This document shows, piece after piece, positions 8,953 through 55,999 of a stretch of DNA of 64,000 nucleotides. The position numbers and the translations under genes were made by a program. The first letter of the stretch is position 1, and each line of letters starts with the position of its first letter. The stretch is from contig NC_054867.1 in assembly GCF_018320785.1 (NCBI RefSeq), positions 32,057,855 through 32,121,854 on the forward strand. The letters run 5' to 3'. The notes below the pieces were generated by a model. The model was not told the DNA's origin. It saw nothing but the letters and a program-made list of their open reading frames with translations, and did not search any database. The stretch is from Cheilinus undulatus (Eukaryota; Chordata; Actinopteri; Labriformes; Labridae).

Positions 8953-10502
<1,550 letters not shown>

Positions 10503-17900: not shown

Positions 17901-20900
17901 AGTTGATGATAAGTTCTTCTTGTCAAAATGTTTGTTTACACAATAATCTCATCTGGTGCAACACCATAACACTAGATCGGCCACCAGGTAAAATGTACCT
18001 CCGTTTATTTTGTGTTAAGTGTAATCATGAGTGAAAGTGATTTCTATTGTGAAATGAAATTTTAAACCTACTCTATCTGAAGTTCAGATTAGTTCTCAGC
18101 CTGAGTTAAATCTTTGAGAGGAATGCAAACACTCCCCCTCTTTGATTTTAGCTGGTTATGTAACATGTTTCAGCCTTGGATACTTACACACATTATACAG
18201 GCTGTAAATTCACACGTCCCTGTGCCGATGGTGATGTATTGGATCTGACCAGGAGATATTCCTGCCTCTTTGAACACATATGATGCATAGAAATAAATCT
18301 GGAAAAAAAGAGAATATTAATAGACTTAAAAGGACTCATTACAAAGGATCATTACAAATACTCCAGCCGATAAGCCGATTATGTCTGCTTTTTTGTACAA
18401 AGAGCAACTATGTTAATACCCTGTTTCCCTCCCAAAGCTGCCAAGCATTGGGTAAAAAACTTAGAAACATCAGAGTGTTACATCAGCATTTTTCTGATGA
18501 GCAGGCAACTAGTATTGGAACAACTATTAGTTTAAATGTGATATTGAAAAATATCTATTGTCACATTTAAAACAATGAGCTGTCTTCACATGTAAACTAC
18601 AGGAAGCATTGATGATTAGACTCCAGTGTACATTATTAATATGACCTGCAGGGACGTAAGGAACACCTGAACATGACTCGCTGATGGATTGTCTCAAATT
18701 TCTAATCAACCACCTGACTGAGCGGAGGGAAACTTGCCCAAAGAGCAACAGATACTGTTTCTGCACGGTATCACTAACACTGATCCACGTGGATTACATA
18801 ACTAATTTTTCTATAGAGACACCCAATCACATATCAGAGACACAAAACGCTCTGCAAAACTCTCCCTGATTATGACATTGAAGCCTTTGTTTTCAGAGGG
18901 TGGGCCGGCTCTTCTTACCGAGTCGTTTCCACAGAGCTGCATGGCGCTGCTGATGATCATGACAGAGATGAGCTGCCAGCGCATAGAGCGATCAGTGAAC
19001 AACTCCCAGGGCTTGCACGGCTTCATGCCTTTGGTTTCAGCCTGTTCCTGCAGGATCTCTTCAAGCTCGCCACTCTGGACTTCACAGCCTCGCAGACGTC
19101 TTAAAGCTGACAACAGGACACATCATAAATACTACATCACTTTCTGATGGTGTCATTATCTGATGGTGTCATGTTGTTCTGTGGTCATCTCATAGCTATA
19201 CTATACAGTTTTATATGCAGAATTGAGTGCACTTCACAGAGTTACAAGACAAACCTGACATGCTTATTTCAAAATGAAACGCCAGTGAAATCCAGCACCA
19301 GTGGCTTATTTATGTAATCAGAGGCACAGGTAGATACTAAAAGATATTAATGTCTTTTATCATGTATGAATTTCACATAACAAGGGAGAAAAGCTGTTAA
19401 AATTCTTTGAAAGTAGCTTACAGTTTTACCCAGGAAGGGTAGCTTTTTTAAACTCATATTTTATTTGCCTTTTTTCCCAGTGACAAAAAACAAATATAGA
19501 ATATGAAGTTTGGTGTCAGAAACAGTAGTAAATTTAACCTCTATTATAGTAGTCCATTCACCTCTTATTTTGTGGAGGGATTTCAAGTCAGTCCACTTTC
19601 TTTTAGCCTCTTTAATGCCGCCAGAAGTATTTCAACCAAGTATCTCTCTTCGTATGTTTTGTATGTATGTTTTCTTGTGTTAAAATACCCGCATACAATA
19701 ACCAATTATACTAATATTGTTTTAATTCCTGATATTTAGCAATAAAATGCATTTTTAATCAAATTATCTCACTTGTAGTATCTTATTTCTGAATTTAATG
19801 ATTTTTACATTTTTTAATTTTAGCAATACTAATCTAAGCTTTTTAAATAAATAAGAAAAACTATTGCATACGATTGGCTGGTATTTTGAGCAATAAGCAG
19901 AATAAAATGAACAGAGGATAATGTCTTTTGTAAAATGAACAAAGTGATCATCTGATGGAGTTGACAGAAAACTGACAGAGTTGACAAACTGCTAATGGGG
20001 ATAAGGAGTAATGGCATAAACTAGCTTTTTTTCCCCAAAAATAACTTTCAGAATTGGCAACAAATTAAAAAAAAATGATGATAATGATAATGATATAGTT
20101 TTTTAGGATAAAATAGAATGAGGTTACAAAATCTCTGAACTCATATGCATAGCTATTGAGATAGTGGTGCAGCATAATGTGTAATCATTCCTCCTATATC
20201 TCATGGTCCTCACACTCAGTTAAAAAAAAAGTCCATAGCTGCATCCTTGGGTAAATATATGTACTAACTGTCCAGCACAGCTTGTTATACCCACCATCAA
20301 TACATGCCTCCTTGTCCCCCCTGTCGATGAGCAGGTATCTGGGGCTCTCTGGAAACCATGGCAGGGTCATGAGCTGCACAAGGCCTGGGATGGCATTACT
20401 TGCCAGGAGATACTCCCAACAAGGCTCACTGCCCAAAATCTCCCTGTCCATGAATAATACAGTTACTGTGAAAAATACTTAAACCTTCATTAGATATTTT
20501 AATGTATATCAAACATTGTCATACCTCAGTCCAACCACCTGCCCCAACACAACACCAAATGCTGTGAAAACAGCTGATGACAAAGAGACAGCTCCTCTTA
20601 GGTGCTTTGGTGCACTTTCACCAAAATACATGGGCTGCACATTCATGCTGATTCCTGCAGAACATAAATGTTCATCTGTAGGCTATATCATCTTTTTTCC
20701 ACCACATTATCAACTCTCATTCCAGTCTCTTAAAGGACAATAGCATTACAGAATTTCTCCGTAACGTGACAGTGTTGGAGGTAAAAAACATAAATTTTTC
20801 ACTGACTGTAATGACATACCAGCATTTATTCCAACCAGGACACGTGAGATGATGATCATCTCAAAAGACTTAGCAGCTCTGCTCGTCACAGCTAACAGCG

Positions 20901-23900
20901 CTCCAGTCATGAGGAAGATGTTGTTCAGCAATAAGCATTTCTTCCTTGGTTAAAAAGGAGAACACAGTAAGTAAATATAAGGGACATTTGGGGGTCAATG
21001 ACAGTTTTAAGCTCATGTAGGCATCTTTTTGTCTGTGCTGATTTTGAACCCCTGCAGACAAAGAAGTATTTCTTATCTCTTTGGTGATTTTGTCCTGTAC
21101 ATGTGCAAGTAATATGTTTTGACAGCTAAAGCATGGTAGGAGTTTGATGTATCAAAAGTAAATAGAAATAGTCAATATGGTCTGTAAAGATGCCTCCAAA
21201 GAACTTTTAATTTTTACTTTTTGCAGTAAATCCACAACATTTATTTTCCTAAAATATTAAACATGCAGTTTTGGTGTGGTTTAAGCCTGACATATGCCTT
21301 ATTCCTCTGTGCTATAAAGCTCAGCTTTTGTCTAAAAAGCTAGTAAAAACATATCAATGAGCAACACTGTTGCAATGTTATATGTTCCTTCATTGTGATG
21401 TAATGTTATCGCTGTAGTATTTTAAGTCAACTTAACAAAAAGCATCCTGCTGGGAAACCAGAGCGAACTATAAGCTCAGGTTTTATTTTCTCTGGCAGAC
21501 AAGTCTGATCACCCTACTGTTATGACAGGTTTCCAGTGGACCTGACTCAGCTCAGGAGAACTACTAACAACTTTAATAAAATTGAAGTCAGTTAAGTGTT
21601 TGCTACAACATTTGAAATATCCCTTGTGTAACAGTATTCATATTTTGGAAAACAACACTAAATAAAAGTATAGTAGCATAATCAGTATAATTTTGTCCTT
21701 GACTGAAAATAGTCTAAAAAGTTCCAGTGACCAGCTTTTACAGTGTTTTATTTTTGTAATTTAACTATGAGTAAACATTTTTATGAGCATTTAAAAATCC
21801 TCCGGAAAGGAGGATATTGACCATAATACTGACCCTAAAAAAAAAACATCAATGTCATTACGTTGTAAAGTATGAATGGATAAAAATGGTTATTCTAATT
21901 TAGGTTGAAGTTATTTTGTGCAACCTTTGTGCATGTGTGTTTATCTGAGGGTTAAACTAAATCCATCTTTATGTGCAGGTGCACGTTACACATATCAAGG
22001 TAAATGAACAATTTCTTAATTCATTCATAGACTTAAATTACAAAAGGTATATCATTAACTGACTGCAACTTGAAATGAAAATCTCATCTGGGAATCTTCT
22101 GCATTGATTACCTTCCAAAGCGTATCGTCATAGGTCCCGCGATTAGAGCCCCTGTTAAGCCCCCCAATGAGAAAATGGAGACAATAATGGTCCAGATCAG
22201 GGTCACCTGGTAGTCCTCAAGCTGGATGTCCCAGCGCTCCAGGAAGGTTTCATTGACGAAGGTTTGAATAAACTGTCAAAAAAGACGAGCATGTTAAAGC
22301 ATCACTGAGTTAACCAAACATGTGCATACATGAGTAAACAGAGCAGCATTTAAAGCTGACACTTATTACCTCAAAGTTCATTTCTTGGTCAGTCAGTTTG
22401 TGTATATTTTTGTCATTTAAATCCAATGATCCATACAGCTAACAGAGAAAGACTCAGAATACCATGGAGAGAATTTAGAGAATTAAATTATCAGAAATAA
22501 GGAAAACCCCAGGGGCACAAGGTCAAATAAGTAATTTTAATATAATAAAACAATAATATTAGCATTAAAATTCAGAGTTGGTGATGTGCTCCACATGTTT
22601 TCCTTCTTGCTGTGATCATTATTACCAGTTTGCTCTAGTTTGTCAGCTGTTTGTTTTTTATAACACAAAAGAAAAAAAAATGGCTTTCAGGAAATAAAGC
22701 CAAATGTACAAAGTCCTATTAGGTCCACTCTAAAAAGTAAAAAACATATATAGGATCTGACATTTTTCGAGAAAAAAAAAAAAACTAAAAAAAAAAAAAA
22801 ACCTAAAAAAATTAAAAAGAAATCCTTTATTATAGCCTAAATTTACATGAAACCACACTCAGAATTGTTTAGTTTAAAAAGTTGTAAATTTATGAGAAAA
22901 GTTTTTTTTTTTTAAAACTACAAAGCTCACAAATTTTGAAAAATGATCCATATTAAAAAGTAGTATATTTGCGAGAAACTTCACTTAAACACTGGTTGAA
23001 TCAGAGCAATCTTCCAGATGCTGTCAGTGTGTTGCTGTCTTCTGAATCACCCAACTTTAAATTAATGTCTCTTAACACCAGACACTAGCAATAATTTGAT
23101 ACTTCTGGGCCAAAATCACAGTATTTCTTTATGGCTCACTCCCAGAAAGAAGTATAATTTGAGTAAGCTCTCAAATGCAGTATTGGTACAAGCAAACATC
23201 TTGCTACATTTTTGATGTAGTTTTAGTTCTCATAAATGTATCAATCTAATCTTGAAAAAAAAATCAGATTAAAAAAAAAATATATATATATATTTTTAAA
23301 TGCTTTAACAGTTTTTTCCCTTGTACATTACAACTTTTTAACTGGAAAATTTCTCTTATTTTCTCATAGATTTACCACCTTTTATTGTGAAAAATTCTGA
23401 GTTTGGTTTGTCGTAAATTTATGACTTTAATCTCAAAAATTGAAAGTGTCTTTTTCCTCAAAATTTAATCCTTTTCATTTTTTTATTATTTAAGAGTGGC
23501 CCTTGTACACTGTCATACAAATGTACCACAGTGTACAAGTCTGACACCTACCCACCTTTAGCTACTCTGGACATTCATCAAAACAACAGAGAAATAATCT
23601 GTTTTGTTGGTGATGCTATTTTTCGCTTTTGAAGGTCTTTAGGAAACATCAGTATCCATTTCACTCTGCTCTATGATCATGACGAATCTCCCCACTGGAG
23701 CTTTAATTCACCACTCTGGTCATGTTTGAATGCTCAGCAGGTGCATCTACAGCAGTATTATCTGCATTTAAAACCTATTTACACTTTAAAATGCTATTGC
23801 TGATAAATAAATCGATCATTTTATTCATACAGTGCTATTTTACAACATGATATATTGCATAATATTTTAGGTCTAGCCTGTAGTCTCGGAAATATTATTT

Positions 23901-32554: not shown

Positions 32555-35500
32555 ATGACTCGAATTTTCTGGGATGCTATTTTTCTTTTAAGTGGTGAGT
32601 AATTGACTTAGCATAAAAATACGCTTTTTGTATGGGAAATATAGATCTTTGGTATTGTCCAATGTTATTCTGCAATCAATATCAACCCACTGGATCACGC
32701 CCTACATGTACTGGGAACCACAAATTCCTTCTTTTGCTAAGTGTTTATGCAAGGCAAACATGATTGATTTTTTCATATGTTTGACCTCATTATGCTCATT
32801 CTAATTTTGTTTATCATCCATGATGGTATTCAGATAAAGTGGGTGTGCTGTTTGGGTGGATGTCTGTGTGGTTTATACTTTCACAGTGTGGGAAAAAAAC
32901 AACTATAATTCATCAGATGTCTTAGTTTGTCTATTTCTTGAATAAGCCAGCCTCTCTGTGCTGTTTTCAGACTCTGGTTGTGGTTGCGTGTCTTCTCAGA
33001 GGGGACCTGCTGTATTTATAGTGCTTTGGTCTCATCCTTTAAGTGCATGCTTGACCCTGTTACTATTGTTGGGTACCAGTTACTCAATGAAGCATCGATA
33101 TCACATTGAAAATATGGTCCTGTACTCATAAGTGTACATTAAGGGATGACTGGGATGACCCTGCATGATGTAGTGTGGTGTGTGACCTGTGGTTTTCCTT
33201 TGGGATGCATTTTTTATTTGTTTAAAGGATAATGGGCCCATCCCTTTTGTTCTTCTAAATGATGGTACTTTGGGCAAATTGGTGGCTCTCAAGGGTCTAT
33301 TTTTGACCTAGTGTTTTTTTATTTTTCACAACAGGATGACTTTTTATTCTCCCTGCAGGTTCCCTCTTTACGTTCGGAGCAGGGCCAAGCAATTCAGCAG
33401 TCATCGAAGCTAGCATTTCCATAAAGACAAACTCTACTAATGCTCTGAACAGCTCGACAAGCAGCTCTGAAACCACCACAAGCAGAAGCACGACTATGAC
33501 AACCTTAGCAGCAACTACAACCAACACTCCTCCAGTTACAGGTAGACCTAACTTCTCTTTGTCATGCATGTTAAGGCTCAAACAATTTCAGAAATATGAC
33601 TGTACTTTTGTTTGACATTTTATGAAGATTTCTATCCATTTTGCTTCAGTTTCAGGCTTTCCTGATAGATTTATCCTCCTGCTGTTTTTACATCAATACT
33701 AGATAATTTTTTTAAAGTCTGCTTCTTTCTCTCTCTGCAGTTTTCTTTACATTTGGAGCAGAACCAACAACTGTTGAAGCAACCATTTCAGTCAACACAT
33801 CTTCCTCCCCTGCTGTGAACACCTCTGTAACAAGCAGCAGTGGGAGCATGACCACCACCGCCACCACCACAACGACAACAACCAACATCCCTCCAGTTAA
33901 AAGTATGTCATATCATGTTTGGATGCAAGGGAATGCTGACGGCTTGTTTCCCTGTATTTCAGATAAAACTGTCCTTATTGCTGCCCTTGATCCTCTCTGA
34001 CTGCATTGCTGCTCTCCCAGCCAGATTTCTCCAAACAGTAAATCTTCCCATTGAGCTGCAGTGCATGCGGACAGTGTGGGGCTCACTGATAATTGATCCT
34101 CTTAGCATGAGCAAGGGCAGCAATTGTGATATATTAAAGGTTATGAGCTGTATACATGAGCAAGGCATCCACCCATTTCAAGCAGTATTGAATTATTATT
34201 ATTATTGTGAGAAAAGCACCTTAACGTGCCCAAGAGGGCTGGTTTCCATCTCAGTGTCCCTCCTGTCTGGCTGCCAAAATCACATGGGAAGAGAGCGAGG
34301 TTGGTAGGCAGATGCCTCAGGGACAACAGAGGGCTTTCACAGAGTCTGAAAGAAGGAGACAATACATGTAGGCTGCAATCCAAAAGCCCATTTACCGATG
34401 GAATGGGAGTGTGTGACGAAGGCTGTAATGCAGATATCTGTCTGCATGTTCATCCTCCTTCTCACCCTGAATGTCACACTGAGCATCTGTTTCCATTCCC
34501 GGTGAACACTTGACTTTTGTTAGGCACAGTTATGCAGGAATTTGTCTGACTGTACAGCTGACCTGTAAGATATGTCCCGTTTTTGTTGATGTGATGTCTT
34601 TTGTCATGAGTGAAAACTGAGACAGCTGCGTTGAAAAAATGGTTTTAATTCCTGCTATAGATCTGTGAACTCTCCTGAGGCCAATGATGTGGGTTAAATG
34701 GACAGAGGGTTTTGTTTGCGATGTCCCACTGAGACTTCTTCTTGGGTCTGATTGTCCCTCCCAGGTACGGATAGAGTTGTAAGCCAGTGCAAATCCACAT
34801 GCAACTGGTTACAAAAGGCTTCAGTGTGCCGCTGGTGGCGTGGGTGTCAGCTTTAGGATTTAGTGCATGCTGTTGTTTTAGGTCTCTGCAGGCTTAGGTT
34901 ATTTTTAGATTTATGATATTCACCTCTGATATGATGTGGATCAGACTGATTGTACTCAGATTATATTTGATAACGTTATTGAGGGTAGAATTCATGCCTT
35001 CAAGGACCTCTAACACTGGGCGGGTCTGCCAAAGCATTGGAAGTTTCTCTAACACATCTTAGAAAACCTTACTAGCTTACACTCTGCCTTTAAAAATGGC
35101 CTTCCTGCTAAATACTAGGGTTTGGTCAATGATCAGCCTCAGCAATTATTAAGGCTGAAATCTGGCATTTGGCTGATTATTGGTATTGGCATTCTAATTT
35201 ACTAATAATCAATCAAATTAATTAATCAAAAAGTGTGCCTCTTTGGTTCCACTGCAAAGGGTGTCTTCTCCTCTGGCTTTATTTTCACTCTCAGTCTCAT
35301 CAGATTGCCTTCATACAACACAGTCTGATTGGTTAGATGTCACATGAGTGCTAGCCAATCAACATTCAAGCTGGACACCACTGACACAGTAAGGGTATGG
35401 TGTCACTTCCTGTTTTCTTGCTGCTACTGTGTTGCTCTGTGCTATTAGACCTAGGGATAACTTTTTTTAGAATGCAATTTTACCTTTGGCACATTAGTAA

Positions 35501-38500: not shown

Positions 38501-41500
38501 CCTATTTATTTCTTTTTTTTGTGTGTGTGTGTGGGGGGGGGCTTTTTATGCCTTTAATTGATAGCGAAGGTCAGTGGATAGAATCGGAAACAGGAATGAG
38601 AGAGCTGGGGAGAGACATTCGGGATAGTGCCACAGGCCGGATTAGAACCCAGGCTGACCCCGTATGTGGAGTGCGCCTTAAACCTCTAGGACACCTGCAC
38701 CCCTTTACATCCCTGTTACTATTAAATGAACCCTAAAAAACAATCAATATTGAAACCGTTCTATCAGGACAGAGGTTTGACCCATTTTTACAGAAATCCA
38801 TCTGTCAGCTGTCATTTGTAAAGATGATGCATGATAAACACCACCTCATCGTTCAAGTCACAAGTTTTGTTGTCAACTTTCCACTTCACACTCTTAGAGA
38901 GTGCAGTTTTCCCTGATTGAGATTTAAAAGAAAATACCTTTTTCCTGCTTGTATTTTTTACCAATCAGGACACAACATAGTGGTATCAAACCCAGTGACA
39001 GACATCATGGAAATACTAATACTAAAACAATAATATGTTAATTACCCCAAAACATGTATTTTATTTAGCTTATTTTAAAGTCTGGCCCCCACAGTGTCTG
39101 CCAAAACAAAATCTGCCCATGTACAAATGTAGTTGATGACACCTGCTCTAGAGTCTTGTTTTCTCTCAAATGGGGGCGCGGTCACTGGAGAGTGGAGATG
39201 ATGTTGCTGTGCTCATATCAATAGCCTCACCAGCAGCAGCCATTGTTTACAGGCTTGCAGTACAACTAAATCCAGCCCACAGCTAACACCTCCCTCTCCT
39301 TAAATGACACTAATGGGCCCATTCATTCTCAGACAAAACGCAACATTCTCAGATTATAGCTTTGCAAGATGGATCTACCTGATGGCAGACATGGAATCTT
39401 GCCAGTTCATCAGTTTTGCAAGGTTATGTCAGATCTCCCTCTCTGACCAATCAAAATCTAAAAGGGGCAAGACTTATGATCCCAGCTTTGTCAACAACAA
39501 TGGTGGAGGAGAAACTGCTCTGACTCTTATATTTGAGGGTAACGTGTCCAGGTCAACAGCTGCAAATACAAGGAAAGCATTTCTTTGCATTATAATAAAG
39601 AAAAATACTAAGCCCAGTGTGTTATTTGACCTAGCAACAATAAACCCTGGTGAGAAGTGCTCTAAAACCAAGGCTGTGGGCACTACCTGTGCAAAAAAGG
39701 GGGCTGTGGTCAGTTGACCTTTCTAGGGTTTATATTCCTCAGCTAAACAGATATCTTGATTTATCGATTGCTTTGGAAAAAGTATCTGCTAAATGACTTT
39801 GTAACATTGTTTCATGATATTGTCTTTATAATGGGTTGTGTGTGTTGTATCATACTATGAATTATCCTGTGACTTCCACCCCTTGCTGGTACATTTTCAT
39901 GAAATTGCTGACAATTTATTGTCTTACCTGTTTACAGAGTTTGTTGCAGCAGCTGTTCGGTCTCATTTTGATGACTGTCCTGACTCCCACCGCCATTTCT
40001 GCTTAAATGGCATGTGTCGATTCCTAATATTAGAGGAGACGCCTGCATGTGTGTAAGTTTATGCTATATTAAATGTTAAATTCCAACTTGTTTCAGTCAA
40101 CTTTGGCCACTTGAAATTTGGAGTTGCAAAATTATGTCAATTAAAAAAGGGCAACAAGTGAAATCTAACATTTTGGATTGATTTGTTTGAGAATAAAGCG
40201 CAGTAATGCTATAAGGCGCTGATTCTGGTGTTTATGTTTCTGAAGAGGCAGGAGAACACACATGCTTTATTTTTATTTTTCATTAAACTGCCAATGTGAG
40301 GAACTTTTGGGTTGTATTGACTACTATGCACGTTGTGAGCAGAAAAAGAGGGCTTTTTTTGTCTGAACATCTTGTCTTTTTACATATTAGTGGTAATTTC
40401 TGACAAATGATCTCATAGATCCTTATTTTTAAAGCCCATCGTCAAAGTAACAATGACTCTTTGACAAAGAAAGTGTGTCTTGGCTCCCTTTAAGTAATTT
40501 TATCCGACTCCCATCACCAGGGATGATGCAAAAGGAATAATCTGTCTTGTTGCTAATGAACTAGCTTGCTTTTGTAGCTCATATAGAGGCATCAGTTTGT
40601 TGTCTTTTACTAACCATCCAAAATCTCGTCACAGGGGCTTTAATTTACTAAATAAAATAATAATCATACCTGTAGTCAGTATCATCAAAGTACTGTAAAA
40701 ACCCAACTTGAAGAGTTGGAGTTTTCCATCTGCCTGTCAAATTGCAATTCTATATTCTGTTAATTCCCTTCTTCTGTTAGTTATTTTCAAAAAATTTTGC
40801 GATGTTATTTTGTCTCTCTTCCAGGTGCCATCCAGGCTTTGTAGGGATGAGGTGTGAGCATGCAGACCTGCTGGCTGTAGTAGCAACAAACCACAGACAG
40901 CAGACGGTGGCCACGGTGCTGGTGTTGTGTGTGATTGGATGTGTTCTCACCATGTTCGTGTGTACACTCCTACAGTAAGTCTCTACCGTTATTTCTGAAT
41001 ATTTTTCATTGCACAAAGCTTAGAGGGACAAAAACAGCTGAAATATGCAAACTGTACAGTAAGTAATTCTAAATAATAAAACTGATGATTTTTTCAGGAT
41101 TTTGAATACCTGTGTGTTTTGTTGTGCAGCTGCTGGTGGAGGCAGGACTGTCGCAGGCAGAGGCACGCACATCACTACGCCACAGAGAAGCACAGATCAT
41201 CTTTCTATCCTTCTGAGAGTGGTACTTTATTAATTCTGTCAATAAGATTATTTCCAAGATAGCCTATCCATGAACAGAGCAGTTTTTAAATGTGTACTTA
41301 AAAGAAATTGATTTGACAATGAAGAATTAGATTATTTAGATTAAATACTACATAAATAATGTTTTTATTTTCCCAATAGCTTACAAAGTAAAAAAAAAAA
41401 AAAACAACTTTACATGTGTGGGAGCATTTTGAAGAAGTTTGAGATCTCAAAAAGGTAAAATGCAAGTTACATCAACAGCTTTTGTCAGACCGCTCGACTG

Positions 41501-44140
41501 TAAGTAACACAGCCTTTCACATAAAATGAGCGAGTAGTTTGTAGCAGTGTTTTTTAAAGTGGGGGTCCTGACGCCAGGGGGTTCACTAAGGGGTGTAGGG
41601 GGGTTGCAGGTGGATGAGGTGGGTAAAAAATAAAATTACATAAATTATTATAATAAAATTATTTTTTGGCAATTGTGTCTTAAATAGGGCATGTCAAATG
41701 ATTAAATCTTCAGATTGCAATTAATCTCAGATTTTCTCTAGTTTATCCAATTATTCTCCTATTTTTGTTGCATTTTTAAATCCCAGTATTTTGCCTTCAT
41801 AGCTGTTTTGTCACTTTTGAAGAATGCATGCCCAAACAGCTGATCAGGAGATGAAAATACACTGTTATTATCAGTATCAGCAGATATGATATTTCTGGCA
41901 ATATTTACTGCCGATATTTTGCTTTAAAAGTCTGCCTATTTCAGCTATGAATATTGGCCATACAAACAAATAAGTCTGTTTTAAGCTGGACCAACAGACC
42001 TCTGCAGCTGAAGTCTTTTTTCTTTGTTCATTCTCATTCCTTACACTTTAGAGTGTGTTTTAATGACTAAAATTGTGTAATTTTTTTTATCCTCAAACTT
42101 GTAATTGTGTGTTTTAAAGACTGGTGTTTGAGGTCTAAACTACATTTATATACAGTGCTTAACAAATTTATTAGACCACCACCCAAAAAAGGTTTATGCC
42201 ACAGCTTACCTAAATTAACAGCATTGCTAATTACCAAAATAACTTTTTATGTTTCTGCAATGGTTAATACACCAATATGTAGAAGCTCTTTAACCCAAAT
42301 GATATTTTTAATGTAAAAATATAATTATTATTGTTATCCATGAATTTTCAAATGTACTGGTTTACAAAAAAACCTGAAAAAATAGTAAAGCACATTAATA
42401 TTTCTTCATTAACATGTCAAATTATAGTTACTTACTTGCATTCCTGAAAAGAAAAATGAGTTTTAGTGGTTGAATGCTATGCTTGATTCATTTCTGACTT
42501 CTCAGAGAAGCCCAGTGAGCCGGCTCAAATTTGGGTATAAAAAGGTGAATTTTGTTTGAAATTCCTCATTTCCTGTTCAAAATGGTAAAACGTGGAGACC
42601 TCACTGAAAATGAAAGAGTCTGCATTAAAGCACTTCATGATGCTGGATGATCTCTGAGACAAATAGGGAAAGACGTAAAGAAAAGGCCTCAGACATCTGG
42701 AAAGGCCTCAGATTTGCCAGGGAGCACAAACACTGGACTATTGTTGACTAGAAGAAGGTACTCTGGACAGACAAGTCCAAGTTTGAACTCTTCAGTCAGC
42801 ATTGTTGTGTTTATGTCTGCAGAAAAGCTGGAGAACAGTTTGATACCAGATGAATTGCACCCACAGTGAAACACGGTGGAGATTCCATTATGGTATGGGG
42901 TTCCATTTGTGGATACGGTCAAATGAGTGAAAACCACAACATCTTAGTGCATCATGGAATCCCTCCTGGACTGAATCTGATTGGTCGTGGGTTCATATAC
43001 CAACAAGACAATGACCCCAAGCATACTTCAAAGCTGTGCAGAAACTATTTGACCAAGAAAAAGGAATCTGGAGTACTGGAACTGATGGACTGGCCAAGTC
43101 AAAGTCCAGATTTGAATCCTATTGAACAAATTTGGGATTTAGTAGATTCAAAGATTGATGGCACAAAAGTTTCATCTAAAGCAAGTCTGTGGAAACAGCT
43201 ACAAACTATTTGGAACTCAATAACAAAAGAGACTGTGGAAAAGTACATAAAAACAATGGCAGCAAGAATGCAAGCTGTTATCAAGGCCAAAGGAGGCCAT
43301 ACAAAAGATTAAGTTTTTTGGTTATGTGTGAAAAAGGACTATTTAGTTCTTTCAGTTTGTTATTTGCCAAATAAATAACAATAACATTTTTAGTTTTAAA
43401 AAGTTTTTGAAAGATTTCTAAAATATTTATGTTTTCTCGTTTTTATGACATAAGGCCTAATACATTTGTTAAGCACTGTATATTGGTATTGGTTAAATTC
43501 AAATTTTAAATATTGAAAAAATTCCAATATCATGCATCCCTACCTGTGGAGGAAGAACATGTAGCCAAATGTTGCATTAGTGCCAAACACAGAGGCTTTC
43601 TGGGTGAAAAATAACACTTAGAAAAATTCCGATAAAGCGTTCATTGAGCCAACATGTTTGTTTGTTTTTTGTTTTTTTTTTGCCATTTTTACCCCAAACT
43701 AACTAAATTACATAGTGAAACTGTACCCATCTGTCATGCTGTAAAGCCTGGTCTCCCTGTTAATACAACCAGCGAGTAGTTCTTAAAGGGGTAACACCAC
43801 TGAAAATACTGGAGGACAATGCCACTACTATTGCCAAGTACCTCATACAACCCAACTTCAAAAATACCAAAATACCCAAAAGAACGAATGAGACATCGAC
43901 TATAAACAAAATGTAGTGCAAGTGTTGGTTGGGATGATGACATGTAGAGCTTTTGATTTATTATGTTGCTCTGAGAAAGCTGAACAAACGCCATCAGATT
44001 TGTTTAATGGTGTTTTGGGTGTTTTAAATGGGTTTGCTCACAGTAATTTAAAATGTCCCGGCCTTACTTTTGTAGGATAATGTGATTCTGGCAGAGGAGG
44101 AAATAGTCCCTGTTTTATTATTTCCTTTTCAGTGGTTTGA
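32555..44140 (+). CDS. tgfa: Protransforming growth factor alpha
   Basis: Ligand precursor for the EGF receptor (ErbB1): a single-pass membrane protein shed by ADAM17-type proteases. Coding exons are 32555-32594, 33359-33541, 33741-33902, 39938-40052, 40825-40974, 41130-41221 and 44133-44140. They join in phase to 750 nt, or 249 residues (human about 160). Order: signal peptide ([13 protein letters not shown]), two related Ser/Thr-rich segments (about residues 14-128), EGF module with Cys at 142, 150, 155, 166, 168 and 177 (spacing C7C4C10C1C8C), transmembrane segment about 194-216 and a Cys/Arg/His-rich tail. The shedding-site contexts VAAAV and LLAVV match mammalian TGF-alpha. The last exon supplies only two valines and the stop, giving SESVV at the C-terminus (human SETVV), the known sorting and PDZ ligand. 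The extra length comes from the duplicated exon. Confidence 0.95.
33359..33541 (+). other. tgfa exon 2, Ser/Thr-rich (duplicate unit 1)
   Basis: It encodes 61 codons with phase 1 at both borders. The segment starts with SLFTFGAGP, passes EASISI and N-glycosylation-like sites (NST, NSS), then a run rich in Thr and Ser, and ends in TNTPPV. The composition suggests dense O-glycosylation. Exon 3 has the same plan, so the two exons appear to be tandem duplicates separated by a 199-bp intron. Confidence 0.85.
33741..33902 (+). other. tgfa exon 3, Ser/Thr-rich (duplicate unit 2)
   Basis: It encodes 54 codons, again phase 1 at both borders. It opens with FFTFGAEP, passes EATISV and NTS sites, has a near-pure Thr stretch from (A/C)CCACC repeats near 33855-33885, and ends in TNIPPV. 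Because both borders are phase 1, either this exon or exon 2 can be skipped without losing the frame. Without exon 3 the protein would be 195 residues. Confidence 0.85.
35116..35615. mobile_element. hAT-like non-autonomous element
   Basis: The tips are TAGGGTTTGGTCAATGAT at the left and, as the complement of the right end, TAGGGGGTCCATTGAT. Likely 8-bp target duplications are CTAAATAC (35108-35115) and CCAAATAC (35616-35623), 7 of 8 matching. The 500-bp interior is non-coding. It lies in intron 3 of tgfa. Confidence 0.65.
35985..36345 (+). repeat. Dispersed repeat family R, copy 3, single subunit
   Basis: It contains CATTCTGTCATATTCATTAC, AATCAGAGCAACAAGACATA and one central unit, AACATCTTTTCTACCAAG through CTCTTCTTTTAATAAAGAAA, ending near CTACATCCAAGC. 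It matches copies 1, 2 and 4 but has only one central unit. It lies in intron 3 of tgfa. Confidence 0.6.
36636..37300 (-). mobile_element. 5'-truncated LINE, ORF2 C-terminus and 3' UTR
   Basis: Read on the minus strand, 37292-36981 encodes the typical end of a LINE reverse-transcriptase [16 protein letters not shown], then [20 protein letters not shown] and LLPNDIK (family form RSF-YRGA-LWN-LP). The 3' UTR follows and ends in an (AAAC)n tail, seen as GTTTGTTTGTTTGTTT at 36645-36660. Everything upstream of the C-terminal part is missing, which is usual for LINE copies. It lies in tgfa intron 3, antisense. Confidence 0.75.
37308..37845 (-). repeat. Dispersed repeat S, copy 2
   Basis: Inverted relative to 7402-7978, with long collinear similarity. 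The TAGCT-rich middle holds a perfect 11-bp hairpin: CATAGCTTGCA at 37468-37478 and TGCAAGCTATG at 37494-37504. It abuts the LINE fragment. It is non-coding, in tgfa intron 3. Confidence 0.65.
38379..39145. mobile_element. hAT-like non-autonomous element, copy 2, with a SINE inside
   Basis: It starts CAGTGATCATCAGCTGG and ends GTTGATGACACCTG, rough inverted copies. The flanks CTCTTGGG (38371-38378) and CTCTAGAG (39146-39153) match at 6 of 8 positions, like an aged 8-bp duplication. It is homologous to 17272-17911 except for the SINE-like insert at 38519-38704. Confidence 0.65.
38519..38704 (-). mobile_element. SINE-like element, copy 2, nested in the hAT-like element
   Basis: Read on the minus strand, a tRNA-like head with GGGTGCAGGTGTCCTAGAGG and a B-box-like GGGTTCTAATCC leads to a tail ending in C(n), (CA)n and A(n), seen on the plus strand as T(n)(GT)nG(n) at 38512-38540. 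It matches 14587-14745. It interrupts the hAT-like copy, so it is the younger insertion. Confidence 0.6.
39150..39445 (+). repeat. Dispersed repeat family R, partial copy
   Basis: It keeps the closing part of the family: TTTGCAAGATGGATCTACCT, GATGGCAGACATGGA and CAGTTTTGCAAGGTTATG. An open frame running from 39304 to 39717 overlaps this repeat and has no family resemblance. Confidence 0.5.
41848..43545. mobile_element. hAT-like element split by a Tc1 insertion
   Basis: The left part (about 41848-42150) carries TATCAGTATCAGCAGATATG and GCTGGACCAACAGACCTC, matching the copy at 50245-50460. The right part (43481-43545) ends CCAATATCATGCATCCCTA, whose complement TAGGGATGCATGATATTGG matches the terminal sequence of the 50.2-kb copy. 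The Tc1 element sits between them. It lies in the last tgfa intron. Confidence 0.55.
42153..43478 (+). mobile_element. Tc1/mariner element, internally deleted
   Basis: Terminal inverted repeats CAGTGCTTAACAAAT(T/G)TATTAG(A/G)CC match at 23 of 25 positions, with TA on both sides (42151-42152 and 43479-43480). The transposase start ([13 protein letters not shown], about 42583) soon meets a stop, and a large middle part is lost. A 148-residue open stretch at 42866-43312 keeps the C-terminal catalytic half: [23 protein letters not shown] and [12 protein letters not shown]. The first catalytic Asp lies upstream in [10 protein letters not shown], separated from it by a stop. It is not autonomous. 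Confidence 0.92.
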
Positions 44141-48595: not shown

Positions 48596-49473
48596 TCAGT
48601 CCATGTGCTGCTGAAGCCGTGAAGGCAGGTCCTCCAGAGAGGTGAGTCGATGCTCTTTAGGAACGTCAGGTCGATTCTGCTCATTGTGCCGGTCCAACAG
48701 GAACCCGTGAATGCCCACTGAGCAAGATGTAAGGTAATCCTTCACATAGTGGTCCCCGATGTGGGCTACACAGTCAGCTGATACACCACATTTCTGCAGA
48801 GCCTGATCAAAGATGGCTGGATTTGGCTTTGCTACGCCAGCTTCCTCTGATGTGATCAGGAAAGTGAAGTGAGACAGGAGGCCACAAGCACGTAGAATCT
48901 CTTCAAGGCGGCGATCGAAGTTTGATACCACACCCAGCTTCAGTCCTAGTGAAGAACAGCTCTGAAGGGCCTTCTCCGAGTCTGGGTATACCTAAAACAG
49001 TGACATCATATTAAGTTGACTCTTCTTGCTCTGCTTCACCACAACTACTCACTCACTACCATACATTAAAAAGCTGATGTTAGAACTTATGTTTAAAGAT
49101 GTGTTTCAAACAGGTATCTGTTTTATATGTCATCTTTCCCTACCTCCCAGTTATCTGCATTGCAGAAGTTATGATAAAGGTTCTGAGCCATTGTATTAAG
49201 CAGGGCTGGGTCTTGCACCCTGCACTGAGAGAATGTGTTATGAACCACCTCCATCCACCAAGACCGGCCATCCAGGCCCTGAGAGGTGCCATAGTTTGGG
49301 TATCTGCTGGACATATGTCGGTATGACTGGCCAAAAGCAGCTTGGACCTCAGCAGGACTGAGGCTCAGGCCCATCCGTTCAGCCTCTTTGCAGTACTGCT
49401 CTCCTACAGAGGCACGCACCTTCAGCAGGGTATCCTTCACATCCCACAGCACCCAGCGCAGGGGAGCTCGCAT
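48596..49473 (-). CDS. hdhd3: Haloacid dehalogenase-like hydrolase domain-containing protein 3
   Basis: HAD-superfamily phosphatase-like protein. Its natural substrate is not established. Two coding exons, 49473-49144 (330 nt) and 48991-48596 (396 nt), join in phase 0 to 241 residues (human 251). All four HAD motifs are visible: nucleophile motif WDVKDTL with Asp11 and Asp14, motif II VVSNFD with Ser133, motif III Lys165 in VAKPNP, and motif IV GDHYVKD with Asp190 and Asp195. The helical cap segment (FGQSYRHMSSRYPNYG and WWMEVV) also matches HDHD3. The ATG lies five bases after an acceptor (TTTGTAG), so a 5' UTR exon exists upstream. A donor at 51257 (CTGG/GTAACG) suits it, giving a 1.8-kb first intron. 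It is head to head with trub2. No breaks seen. Confidence 0.95.
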
Positions 49474-49478
49474 TACAC

Positions 49479-51256
49479 CTACAAAGGGACCACAACAGAC
49501 AGACGACAGATTAATGAGAGGTAATATTTCTTCTTATGGATATTACTCAGATAAGCCAATAAGCCTGTGTGTAAAAAAATCATTTATGCTTTTCAGTGGG
49601 GTAAACTCTTTGAAGTGTTCTAAAATTTTTACCATACTTAACAGCTCAGCTTACCCAATAAATTTAGCTTTCTGGAGGTTAACAAAGACATGGCCACCCT
49701 AAATTTAAGCAATTTTATTCTAAACTTAAATACCCACCAGACTTATTAAAACACACACACATTTTGTTTTTCTGTTTTTTGGTTTCAAATGCAATCTCCC
49801 TCTTCTTACTGTGTTTGAGCCTTTACTTTTGTAATATTAAAGCTGTGGTCAGGACCACTGAGCTTAACCATTAGGACAATAATGCCAGTGCAAATAGCCA
49901 TGCTAAGACCTCCAACAAACATTTTTCAGTTGGCTCCAAAGCTGACCAAGAGCCAAGTGTTAGCCAGGTGGCAAGTGCTAAATCAATGTGCATGCACTAA
50001 TATTGTTAAATGACATCTGGGGAGGGCCTATTTGGCCTTTCAGGAAACCAGCCATATCAATGGGTGGACATGAAAGTCTGAGATTTAGCATGATTCAAAG
50101 TACCAAATACAGAAGCTTTTAAATGGAATTCAGTCATGTACGATTCTTTAATTTACACCTGTGGTTTAATGTGACCTATAAAACCATCTTATGAACCCAA
50201 CAAACTCACTCTATATCAAACAGTATAGACTGGAATTCAAGGTAGGGATGCACAATGTTATCCACATGATATCAGTATTGGCAGACTCTAGCCTAAAATG
50301 TGAGTTATTAGTTTTGGCACACATGAAATCCCTGCTGATATTTATAACTGATATTTTGACCATAAAATGTGCCTACACAGGCTGTAAATACTGGCTGTAT
50401 GAGAAAATAAGCTAGTAGCGTTTCAGGCTGGACCAACAGTCCACTTCAGCACTTTCAAATGAATAAATCACACAAGCATGAGGGAAGTATAGTCGTGTGA
50501 ATGATGATATGGCAGTGATTTAGCCTATGAGTGGTATAAGAAGACCACCCAACCAAATCATACAGAGTACAGTGATGAGTTAAGGACTTAAGATTTTTTT
50601 AATAAAGTGCCACGTGGTAAACAGTATGGAAGATATTCTACTGTGGTTAAAGGGGCTATTTTGCATGGACATGAACATGACGGGCCTTGAGACGTGCCCT
50701 CCGATGTGACCCTTTGGGCAACTAAAGAGTGAAAAACACTGGTTCAAACTATTCAAATACTGAACAGAGCTTAGTGCAATTCAGCCATCCTGACTTTCAA
50801 TTTTCAGCTGTCCTTTTCATCTTTGTCTATATATCGTTGCTTTGGTTCAAATTTAAGTCTAGCTGTAAAGTCATTGGTATTTATTGAGTAAATGTTCCCG
50901 CAAACATGGTGTCTGAGGCAAAAATGAACTCAAAAGCCCGGTCCTATGCTAAAGTTACATATTATTAGACATGCAGGTTAATTTTAAAACCTTGCAGACT
51001 AACGTTCATTCCTTCACGCACGTGAGGCTCTCGTAGTTGGCAGCAACTACGTCACTGAAAACGTTGACGTTACCTGGCTACGTAAAATGTCCTTGCAAGT
51101 CACTTATGATTAACACAAGCTAGCGTTACACCTACACGCCAATGTTGTTGTGCAAGCCAACCTGCCAGCTCTTTTCCACATTCACAAGGTAGAAAACCAG
51201 TGCCGTTAAGATATGAATTACTATAAAAACAAACGTTTTAAAGTTGAAAACGTTAC
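49479..51256 (-). other. hdhd3 first intron, with hAT-like fragments
   Basis: It is non-coding. A hAT-like fragment lies at 50245-50460 and another hAT-like end near 50660-50750 (CCTTTGGGCAACTAAAGAGT with AACACTGGTTC). No other feature was seen. Confidence 0.5.
50245..50460 (+). repeat. hAT-like fragment related to 41.8-43.5 kb
   Basis: It opens TAGGGATGCACAATGTTATC, then GATATCAGTATTGGCAG, and ends around GGCTGGACCAACAGTCCAC, matching the split element at 41848-43545. Confidence 0.55.
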
Positions 51257-54800: not shown

Positions 54801-55999
54801 ACTCATGGTTTAGAAATGAGAGTTTCCTCTTTAGTTATAACCCACTTCCCTTTTAATTAATATATACTGGTATAAATTATTTTTAATTTGAATAGTGTTT
54901 GTGCTGTTTGAAATTCCATAAGTTCTGCAAATTTGGGTGATTTTTATTATGCCAATTTACCTTTTTTTGTGCATGCCGCAAAATACGTTCCTCCTACCAC
55001 AAAATATATTTGGCAGTACTGCTAGTAATGCTATTGCTGTTCTTACTTTTTTTTTTTTTTTAACTTAATTAATTGTACTGGTATTGCTAATATAAATTTA
55101 TTTAAGGCACTTCTCTTTGTTTTAACTCTTATCATTTGTTACAAACTTAAAGTTGGTCTTTTTATTAATAAATGTGCTTTTGTGTTACCTTTACTTTGTA
55201 CTGTAATGTTGGAGCAGTCTTACACCAGATCTGTCTTCTCTCGTCTTAGGCCACATCACGCAGGACAAGCTGGACAAAGTCTTGGCAATGCTGCAGGGAG
55301 CCAATCAGAAAGCCATGTTAATGTATGCTTTTTTTTTTAAAGACAACCCAGCTGACTAATGATGGTTTTATTGATCTTGGTGCCCTATTGAAAGAGTTAA
55401 TGTTGAAGTTTCAGGTGTAGTTGACTCTTTGTCCCTCCCATACAGGTACTCCAACATCGACATGCACTCACAGGAAGCTTATGAGCTGGCAGTGAAAGGT
55501 TTACTTGGTCCAGATGGAAAATCACAGCCTATTCTTACAGGCCTGCGTTGCATTCACTTTCAGCCACCCAACTTTACTTTAGGTAAATTTAACATGCAGT
55601 AAACCTCATCTTATAGTGTTAATAATGCAGTCTTTCAGGGTGCTCTCTGGATTTATTTGATCTTTGTCATGTGCTCTTACAGAAGTGCAGTGTCTAAACG
55701 AAACCCAGAAATACTTGCGCAAAGTTGTGCATGAGATAGGACTGGAGCTGCGCAGCACAGCGGTGTGTAAAGGAGTCAGACGGACCAGAGAAGGCCCCTT
55801 TACCCTGCAGGATGCCCTGCTCCGTCACCAGTGGACTCCTTCTGATGTCCAGAAGGCCATCGAACAATACCACTTGTCTAAAAAAAGACAAAGACAGTCT
55901 CGCTCACCTACCAAAGACTCGGCATCTGAGGATGCAACAACAGACAGTCAACAAAATGAAACGGGCAACAAGAACACAGCAGCAGGTCAGATTGTATGA
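51870..55999 (+). CDS. trub2: Mitochondrial mRNA pseudouridine synthase TRUB2
   Basis: TruB-family pseudouridine synthase. The mammalian protein acts in mitochondria on mRNAs and in a module with RPUSD3/4, FASTKD2 and others that supports 16S rRNA and the mitoribosome. Eight exons: 51870-51987, 52188-52322, 52982-53056, 53150-53211, 53296-53377, 55250-55322, 55446-55582 and 55683-55999. They join in phase to 999 nt, or 332 residues (human 331). Family marks are FCVYKPSGVHW, the catalytic block VGHRLDVSSSGVL with Asp102, DYTLEGVFGSATDDF, RSTYGHITQDKL, MYSNIDMHSQEAYELAVKGL and EVQCLNETQKYLRKVVHEIG. The tail is Lys/Arg/Ser-rich and differs from mammals, as usual. The donor of exon 3 (CTAA/GTGGGA) is weak, but the reading across it (VLILALGHG) is right. 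No breaks seen. Confidence 0.96.
52593..52720. repeat. Three degenerate tandem units of about 42 bp
   Basis: Three successive units share a GCCCTCTAAGTGAA-like block followed by a TTGACA(A/C)A(T/G)TG-like block. Starts are near 52597, 52640 and 52680. They lie in intron 2 of trub2 within a repeat-like stretch (about 52480-52740). Non-coding. Confidence 0.5.
54222..54582 (+). mobile_element. tRNA-derived SINE with LINE-type tail
   Basis: The head, GGGGTAAGCGCTGTTGCCTC, and the B-box-like GGTTCGCTTCCCAG look tRNA-derived. The body (CCTCCCACCACCAAAAACAT, GGTTAATTGGTGG, GACTGGCGACCAGTC) and the tail (AGGATAAGCGGTATAGAAAA, then TGGATGGATGGA) match a very common fish SINE. It lies in trub2 intron 5, in the sense direction. 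The minus-strand open frame through it is antisense noise. Confidence 0.8.

Follow-up and report, generated by a model that had tools for sequence, protein, structure and literature searches.

Gene structure and identity of tgfa

The window, a stretch of 64,000 nucleotides from Cheilinus undulatus (NC_054867.1, positions 32,057,855 to 32,121,854), carries on its forward strand a gene for which exons E1 to E5 were delineated, with AG/GT dinucleotides at the internal exon borders throughout (Table 1). When the EGF module encoded by E4 and E5 was compared with sequences of solved structures, human TGF-alpha was the best match (E = 1.9e-22, 49 amino acids aligned), followed by betacellulin (6.2e-17), with weaker matches for the rest of the 21 distinct sequences listed. 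The Pfam EGF model matched the module with 15.8 bits, under the curated cut-off of 21.5, and the identification therefore rests on the solved-structure match. Judged from its predicted protein, the gene is tgfa.

As in vertebrate TGFA, the EGF module resembles human TGF-alpha and the VAAAV and DLLA/V sites are retained. An intron falls between Cys 4 and Cys 5 of the module (E4/E5 border PAC/VC), and E5 continues from the module into a hydrophobic helix. Human TGFA has an exon border inside the signal peptide, as is predicted here. The difference from vertebrate TGFA is that the exon for the predicted signal half and propeptide is doubled here. Acceptor-linked frames were compared with the human tail, and the candidate tail exon, held with low confidence, scored 32 against 27 for the next frame.

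In a genome search for further tgfa copies, six candidates at six places were scored: two correspond to exons of tgfa itself (identities of 86 and 94%), and the remaining four, among them a btc-like one, had E values no better than 0.04. Because this search did not return the other expected EGFR ligands, a diverged second tgfa copy could escape it.

Table 1. Features of the tgfa locus and its surroundings, and of the btc-like paralogue (window positions unless another location is given; donor scores in bits)
Feature	Position	Strand	Size and borders	Content or evidence
tgfa E1, coding part	32555-32594	+	40 nt including 1 nt overhang; donor GTG/gtgagt, 9.2 bits	predicted first half of signal peptide
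tgfa E2	33359-33541	+	183 nt, phase 1-1; donor CAG/gtagac	SLFTFGA, predicted second half of signal peptide, then Ser/Thr-rich propeptide; 2 sequons
Intron between the copies	33542-33740	+	199 nt	
tgfa E3	33741-33902	+	162 nt, phase 1-1	divergent E2 copy (VFFTFGAEP to TNIPPVK); 2 sequons
tgfa E4	39938-40052	+	115 nt	VAAAV processing site, first four Cys of EGF module
tgfa E5	40825-40974	+	150 nt	remainder of EGF module, DLLA/VVA site, transmembrane helix
Candidate cytoplasmic-tail exon	41130-41210	+	end coordinate nominal	low confidence
Transposase remnant, Tc1/mariner type	9364-9702	+		Sleeping Beauty HTH, 4.2e-12
Sugar transporter gene piece, upstream of tgfa	20197-20478	-		Sugar_tr, 4.7e-6
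Further transporter-like stretches	near 20542-20595 and 22135-22191			
Transposase remnant, Tc1/mariner type	42854-43309	+		DDE_3 domain, 1.6e-7
HAD-type hydrolase gene, downstream of tgfa, presumably hdhd3	48599-49533	-		Hydrolase, 2.1e-16 for 48599-48991; adjacent frame 49126-49533 without Pfam match
Possible pseudouridine synthase exon	55661-55996	+		TruB C-terminal, weak match at 0.0014 (under the cut-off)
btc-like paralogue, same genome	G000:C17:14350180-14355266 region			betacellulin best, E 1.1e-15
btc-like E2	G000:C17:14350953-14351060		108 nt, phase 1-1	

E2 and E3 are homologous adjacent exons

A tandem duplication of an exon in tgfa had been proposed in the first-pass annotation, and both the duplication and the symmetric phase-1 borders of the two exons were borne out. 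The translated exons share 52% identity over 58 alignment columns and gave a local alignment score (BLOSUM62) of 117, a value reached by none of 10,000 shuffles of the E3 protein (mean 48.9, sd 6.5, maximum 83). Both exons open with (L/F)FTFGA, E2 ends in TTTNTPPVT and E3 in TTTNIPPVK, and the likeness is collinear across head, middle and tail.

Ser/Thr content is 48-49% in both exons, and two unrelated Thr/Ser-rich sequences might resemble each other through composition only. When Ser and Thr were masked, the alignment score was 34 (shuffle mean 13.7, maximum 31), and when Ser and Thr were held fixed and the other residues shuffled, the observed 117 compared with a mean of 60 and a maximum of 96; in neither test did any of 10,000 shuffles reach the observed score. 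At the DNA level, the alignment score of 40 was reached by 0 of 1000 dinucleotide shuffles (mean 18.7, maximum 34), and it was equalled or exceeded by 4 of 5000 codon shuffles (mean 21.1, maximum 43), a strict scoring that leaves composition some room. The collinearity and the three protein shuffle tests, one of them masked for Ser/Thr, argue against a likeness by composition, which we regard as highly improbable; chance likeness of Thr/Ser-rich sequence is ruled out by the protein tests. E2 and E3 are therefore confirmed as homologous adjacent copies. E2 is the longer by 21 nt, a number divisible by three; the codon alignment forces gaps to multiples of three, so that such gaps are no evidence, and the DNA alignments also place gaps of other lengths.

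Nine candidates were scored in a search of the genome (1.17 Gb) with both exons, and the two with an E value of 1 or below were E2 and E3 themselves; the sole match of E2 searched as DNA was itself. No third copy was found within the window, where the next tblastn matches of both exon queries had E values of 0.08 or worse. Adjacent, homologous and equal in phase, E2 and E3 form a tandem duplicated exon pair, a known kind of event whose placement in tgfa is unusual.

The copied exon begins with a predicted signal-peptide half

E1 alone does not reach the usual length of a signal peptide and appears to stop in the middle of one. A hydrophobic run crosses the E1/E2 junction (AIFLLSGSLFTF, 12-residue Kyte-Doolittle mean 1.95), and a similar run crosses the E1/E3 junction formed when E2 is skipped (IFLLSVFFTFGA, mean 2.28). 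In both joins TFG/A fits the -3,-1 rule, one of six such sites in E1-E2 and of four in E1-E3. On the basis of hydrophobicity and the -3,-1 rule, the (L/F)FTFGA opening of E2 and E3 is probably the second half of the signal peptide. Joining E1 straight to E4 gave a start that was hydrophobic as well (2.27) and led into VAAAV; since this is as hydrophobic as E1-E3, hydrophobicity discriminates poorly and does not single out E2 or E3.

Taken together with the layout of the btc-like paralogue described below, the continuity of the hydrophobic run into both copies suggests that the copied unit is most simply a signal half plus propeptide. The earlier description of the exon as mucin-like, which covered the propeptide part only, thus stands as regards its Ser/Thr richness, but the exon is probably not purely stalk, as its FTFGA opening continues the hydrophobic start of E1. 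Isoforms with a single copy would consequently swap a signal half together with a propeptide.

As a separate observation, the frame is also kept when E1 is joined to E4 without E2 and E3. The product might still act as a signal peptide and would then end directly at the processing site.

Composition and position of the propeptide

Ser and Thr account for 29 of 60 residues in E2 (48%) and 26 of 53 in E3 (49%), with 3 and 4 Pro and with 4 and 3 charged residues (K/R plus D/E), respectively. Each copy carries two N-glycosylation sequons, in agreement with what had been claimed for both exons. High Ser/Thr, some Pro and few charges correspond to a mucin-type composition, and O-glycosylation of both segments is putative. 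In mammals the corresponding prodomain is one short segment, and larger glycosylated forms with the propeptide still on are known. The human propeptide exon is shorter and poorer in Ser/Thr than either copy here.

The E2/E3 segment lies N-terminal to VAAAV and distal to the EGF module. Of the 50 residues of the human ligand (1mox chain C), the alignment to TGF-alpha takes in 2-50 and ends at DLLA, and by extension the last Val of VAAAV corresponds to residue 1. Because the copied segment precedes VAAA/V, the mature ligand is expected to be the same in every isoform, and the duplication would then act only via secretion, folding, trafficking or forms that retain the propeptide. The segment had been described as a stalk in front of the EGF module, which holds for its N-terminal position but not in the sense of a membrane-proximal stalk. 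Effects on receptor access would be expected mainly for uncleaved forms.

Age and selective constraint

The dating called for in the first-pass annotation indicates that the duplication is old. Over 52 codons, dS between E2 and E3 was 0.88 (bootstrap 0.49-1.74) and dN 0.32 (0.20-0.46). No clear similarity was found between the introns around E2 and those around E3 in four comparisons of flanking intron ends: the observed scores were reached by 651 and 728 of 1000 shuffles for the upstream pairs and by 151 and 25 of 1000 for the downstream pairs, the last being a weak hint, with 83 of 1000 for a control pair. The dissimilar introns together with a dS of about 0.9 rule out a recent duplication or a simple assembly artefact.

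At a rough silent rate of a few substitutions per site per billion years, the divergence translates into an age of the order of 100 million years, if not more. Along the exon, dS fell from 1.42 (first 18 codons of the alignment) to 0.96 (middle) and 0.31 (last 9 codons), which makes DNA-level constraint or gene conversion at the exon tail possible; gene conversion, if any occurred, would make the duplication older still.

Silent changes exceeded replacement changes (Fisher p 0.006, from rounded counts), and dN/dS was 0.36 (bootstrap 0.17-0.70), with 83% of replicates below 0.5 and about 17% at 0.5 or more; 13 of 5000 replicates were dropped because dS was undefined. In neutral simulations at a divergence of 0.44, 37% of E2 and 47% of E3 sequences were stop-free, so that an absence of stops says little by itself.

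Decay of one copy, E3 (or E2), into a seldom used exon is quite unlikely, as the open frames, the intact AG/GT borders, the pyrimidine-rich acceptors (14 and 15 of 16 positions in E2 and E3) and the excess of silent changes argue against it. Decay would be compatible with the upper bootstrap limit of 0.70, with the frequent retention of stop-free frames under neutrality, with the weak E2 donor and with the E3 donor (AAA/gtatgt), which lacks a G at -1. Given 52 codons and this bootstrap spread, one copy may have evolved under relaxed constraint.

Splicing of the two copies

The most likely reading, which we favor with modest confidence, is an old tandem duplication with both copies included in the default transcript E1-E2-E3-E4-E5. 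The second coding exon of tgfa, with the C-terminal signal-peptide half and a glycosylated propeptide, would have been copied in tandem long ago. E1 and E2 would together encode a working signal peptide, and E2 and E3 a doubled, Ser/Thr-rich propeptide of roughly 110 residues, predicted to carry N- and O-linked glycans and to be cut off at VAAA/V, leaving mature TGF-alpha unchanged. All four translated combinations of E2 and E3 keep an open frame, and E1-E2-E4 is also predicted to give a secreted isoform. As E3, too, opens with a predicted signal half, E1-E3-E4, in which E2 is skipped, would likewise still be secreted.

Alternatively, E2 and E3 may be mutually exclusive, each completing the signal peptide of E1, with cells choosing a version of leader and propeptide for the same ligand. 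The main hint for such a substitution, a small one, is the retention of FTFGA in E3, since a segment internal to a stalk would not obviously need a signal half; in the 8 codons of this head, E3 differs from E2 by three synonymous and two replacement changes (dN/dS 0.15), although counts of this size are tiny. Mutual exclusion would also be in keeping with the slightly more hydrophobic E1-E3 core, with an E2 donor that is the weakest of the five scored (5.1 bits vs 5.7-9.2) and with the mostly ancient origin of human tandem exon substitutions (PMC9741552, accessible text). However, joining E2 to E3 keeps the frame, so that nonsense-mediated decay would not enforce exclusivity, and the intron between the copies looks long enough for splicing. 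Furthermore, the predicted RNA structure of the 579 nt around both copies was not unusual (z 0.20, with 61 of 100 shuffles folding as well or better), and a role of RNA structure in steering exon choice was unsupported. We therefore consider mutual exclusion somewhat unlikely, and the inclusion of both copies remains the preferred reading.

The roles of EGFR-ligand propeptides are less clear than those of the ligands. A propeptide exon that is duplicated and apparently still coding offers a natural experiment on the propeptide that leaves the ligand aside, and the exon layout, with a signal half preceding the propeptide, allows one-exon swaps with secretion intact, which, if confirmed, would be an unusual use of exon duplication. 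A further speculation, which we hold to be unlikely, is that E2 and E3 act as alternative signal-peptide-plus-propeptide cassettes, through which splicing might set the secretion route or the glycan load of an identical hormone.

Comparison with published duplications and with a btc-like paralogue

In the accessible text of a survey of human genes, 236 tandem duplicated exon substitution events, mostly ancient, are reported, with the remark that disordered exon pairs may escape detection (PMC9741552). E2 and E3 resemble these events in being old, adjacent and homologous coding exons, whereas members of the human set, as described in that text, must for the most part be annotated in different transcripts; TGFA is not mentioned in the main text. 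According to the available portion of Laisney et al. 2010 (PMC2834686), most surveyed fishes have one copy per EGFR ligand, and no mention of a tgfa exon duplication was found in that portion. Judged by titles and the openings of abstracts, no published account of this duplication was found.

The btc-like paralogue in the same genome has the same layout as tgfa, namely a 40-nt E1 (MAKVYRVCLVIIT) with a hydrophobic run at its end and a phase 1-1 E2 with a hydrophobic start (ALALC) and two N-glycosylation sequons. Unlike in tgfa, one E2 was found, the next match in the gene region having an E value of 0.14, and its Ser/Thr content is 17%. This exon emerged with relaxed thresholds, strict thresholds having given nothing, and another scan of the same stretch gave one unlikely E2 candidate. 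The donor of the btc-like E2 (CAG/gtagat) is close to that of tgfa E2.
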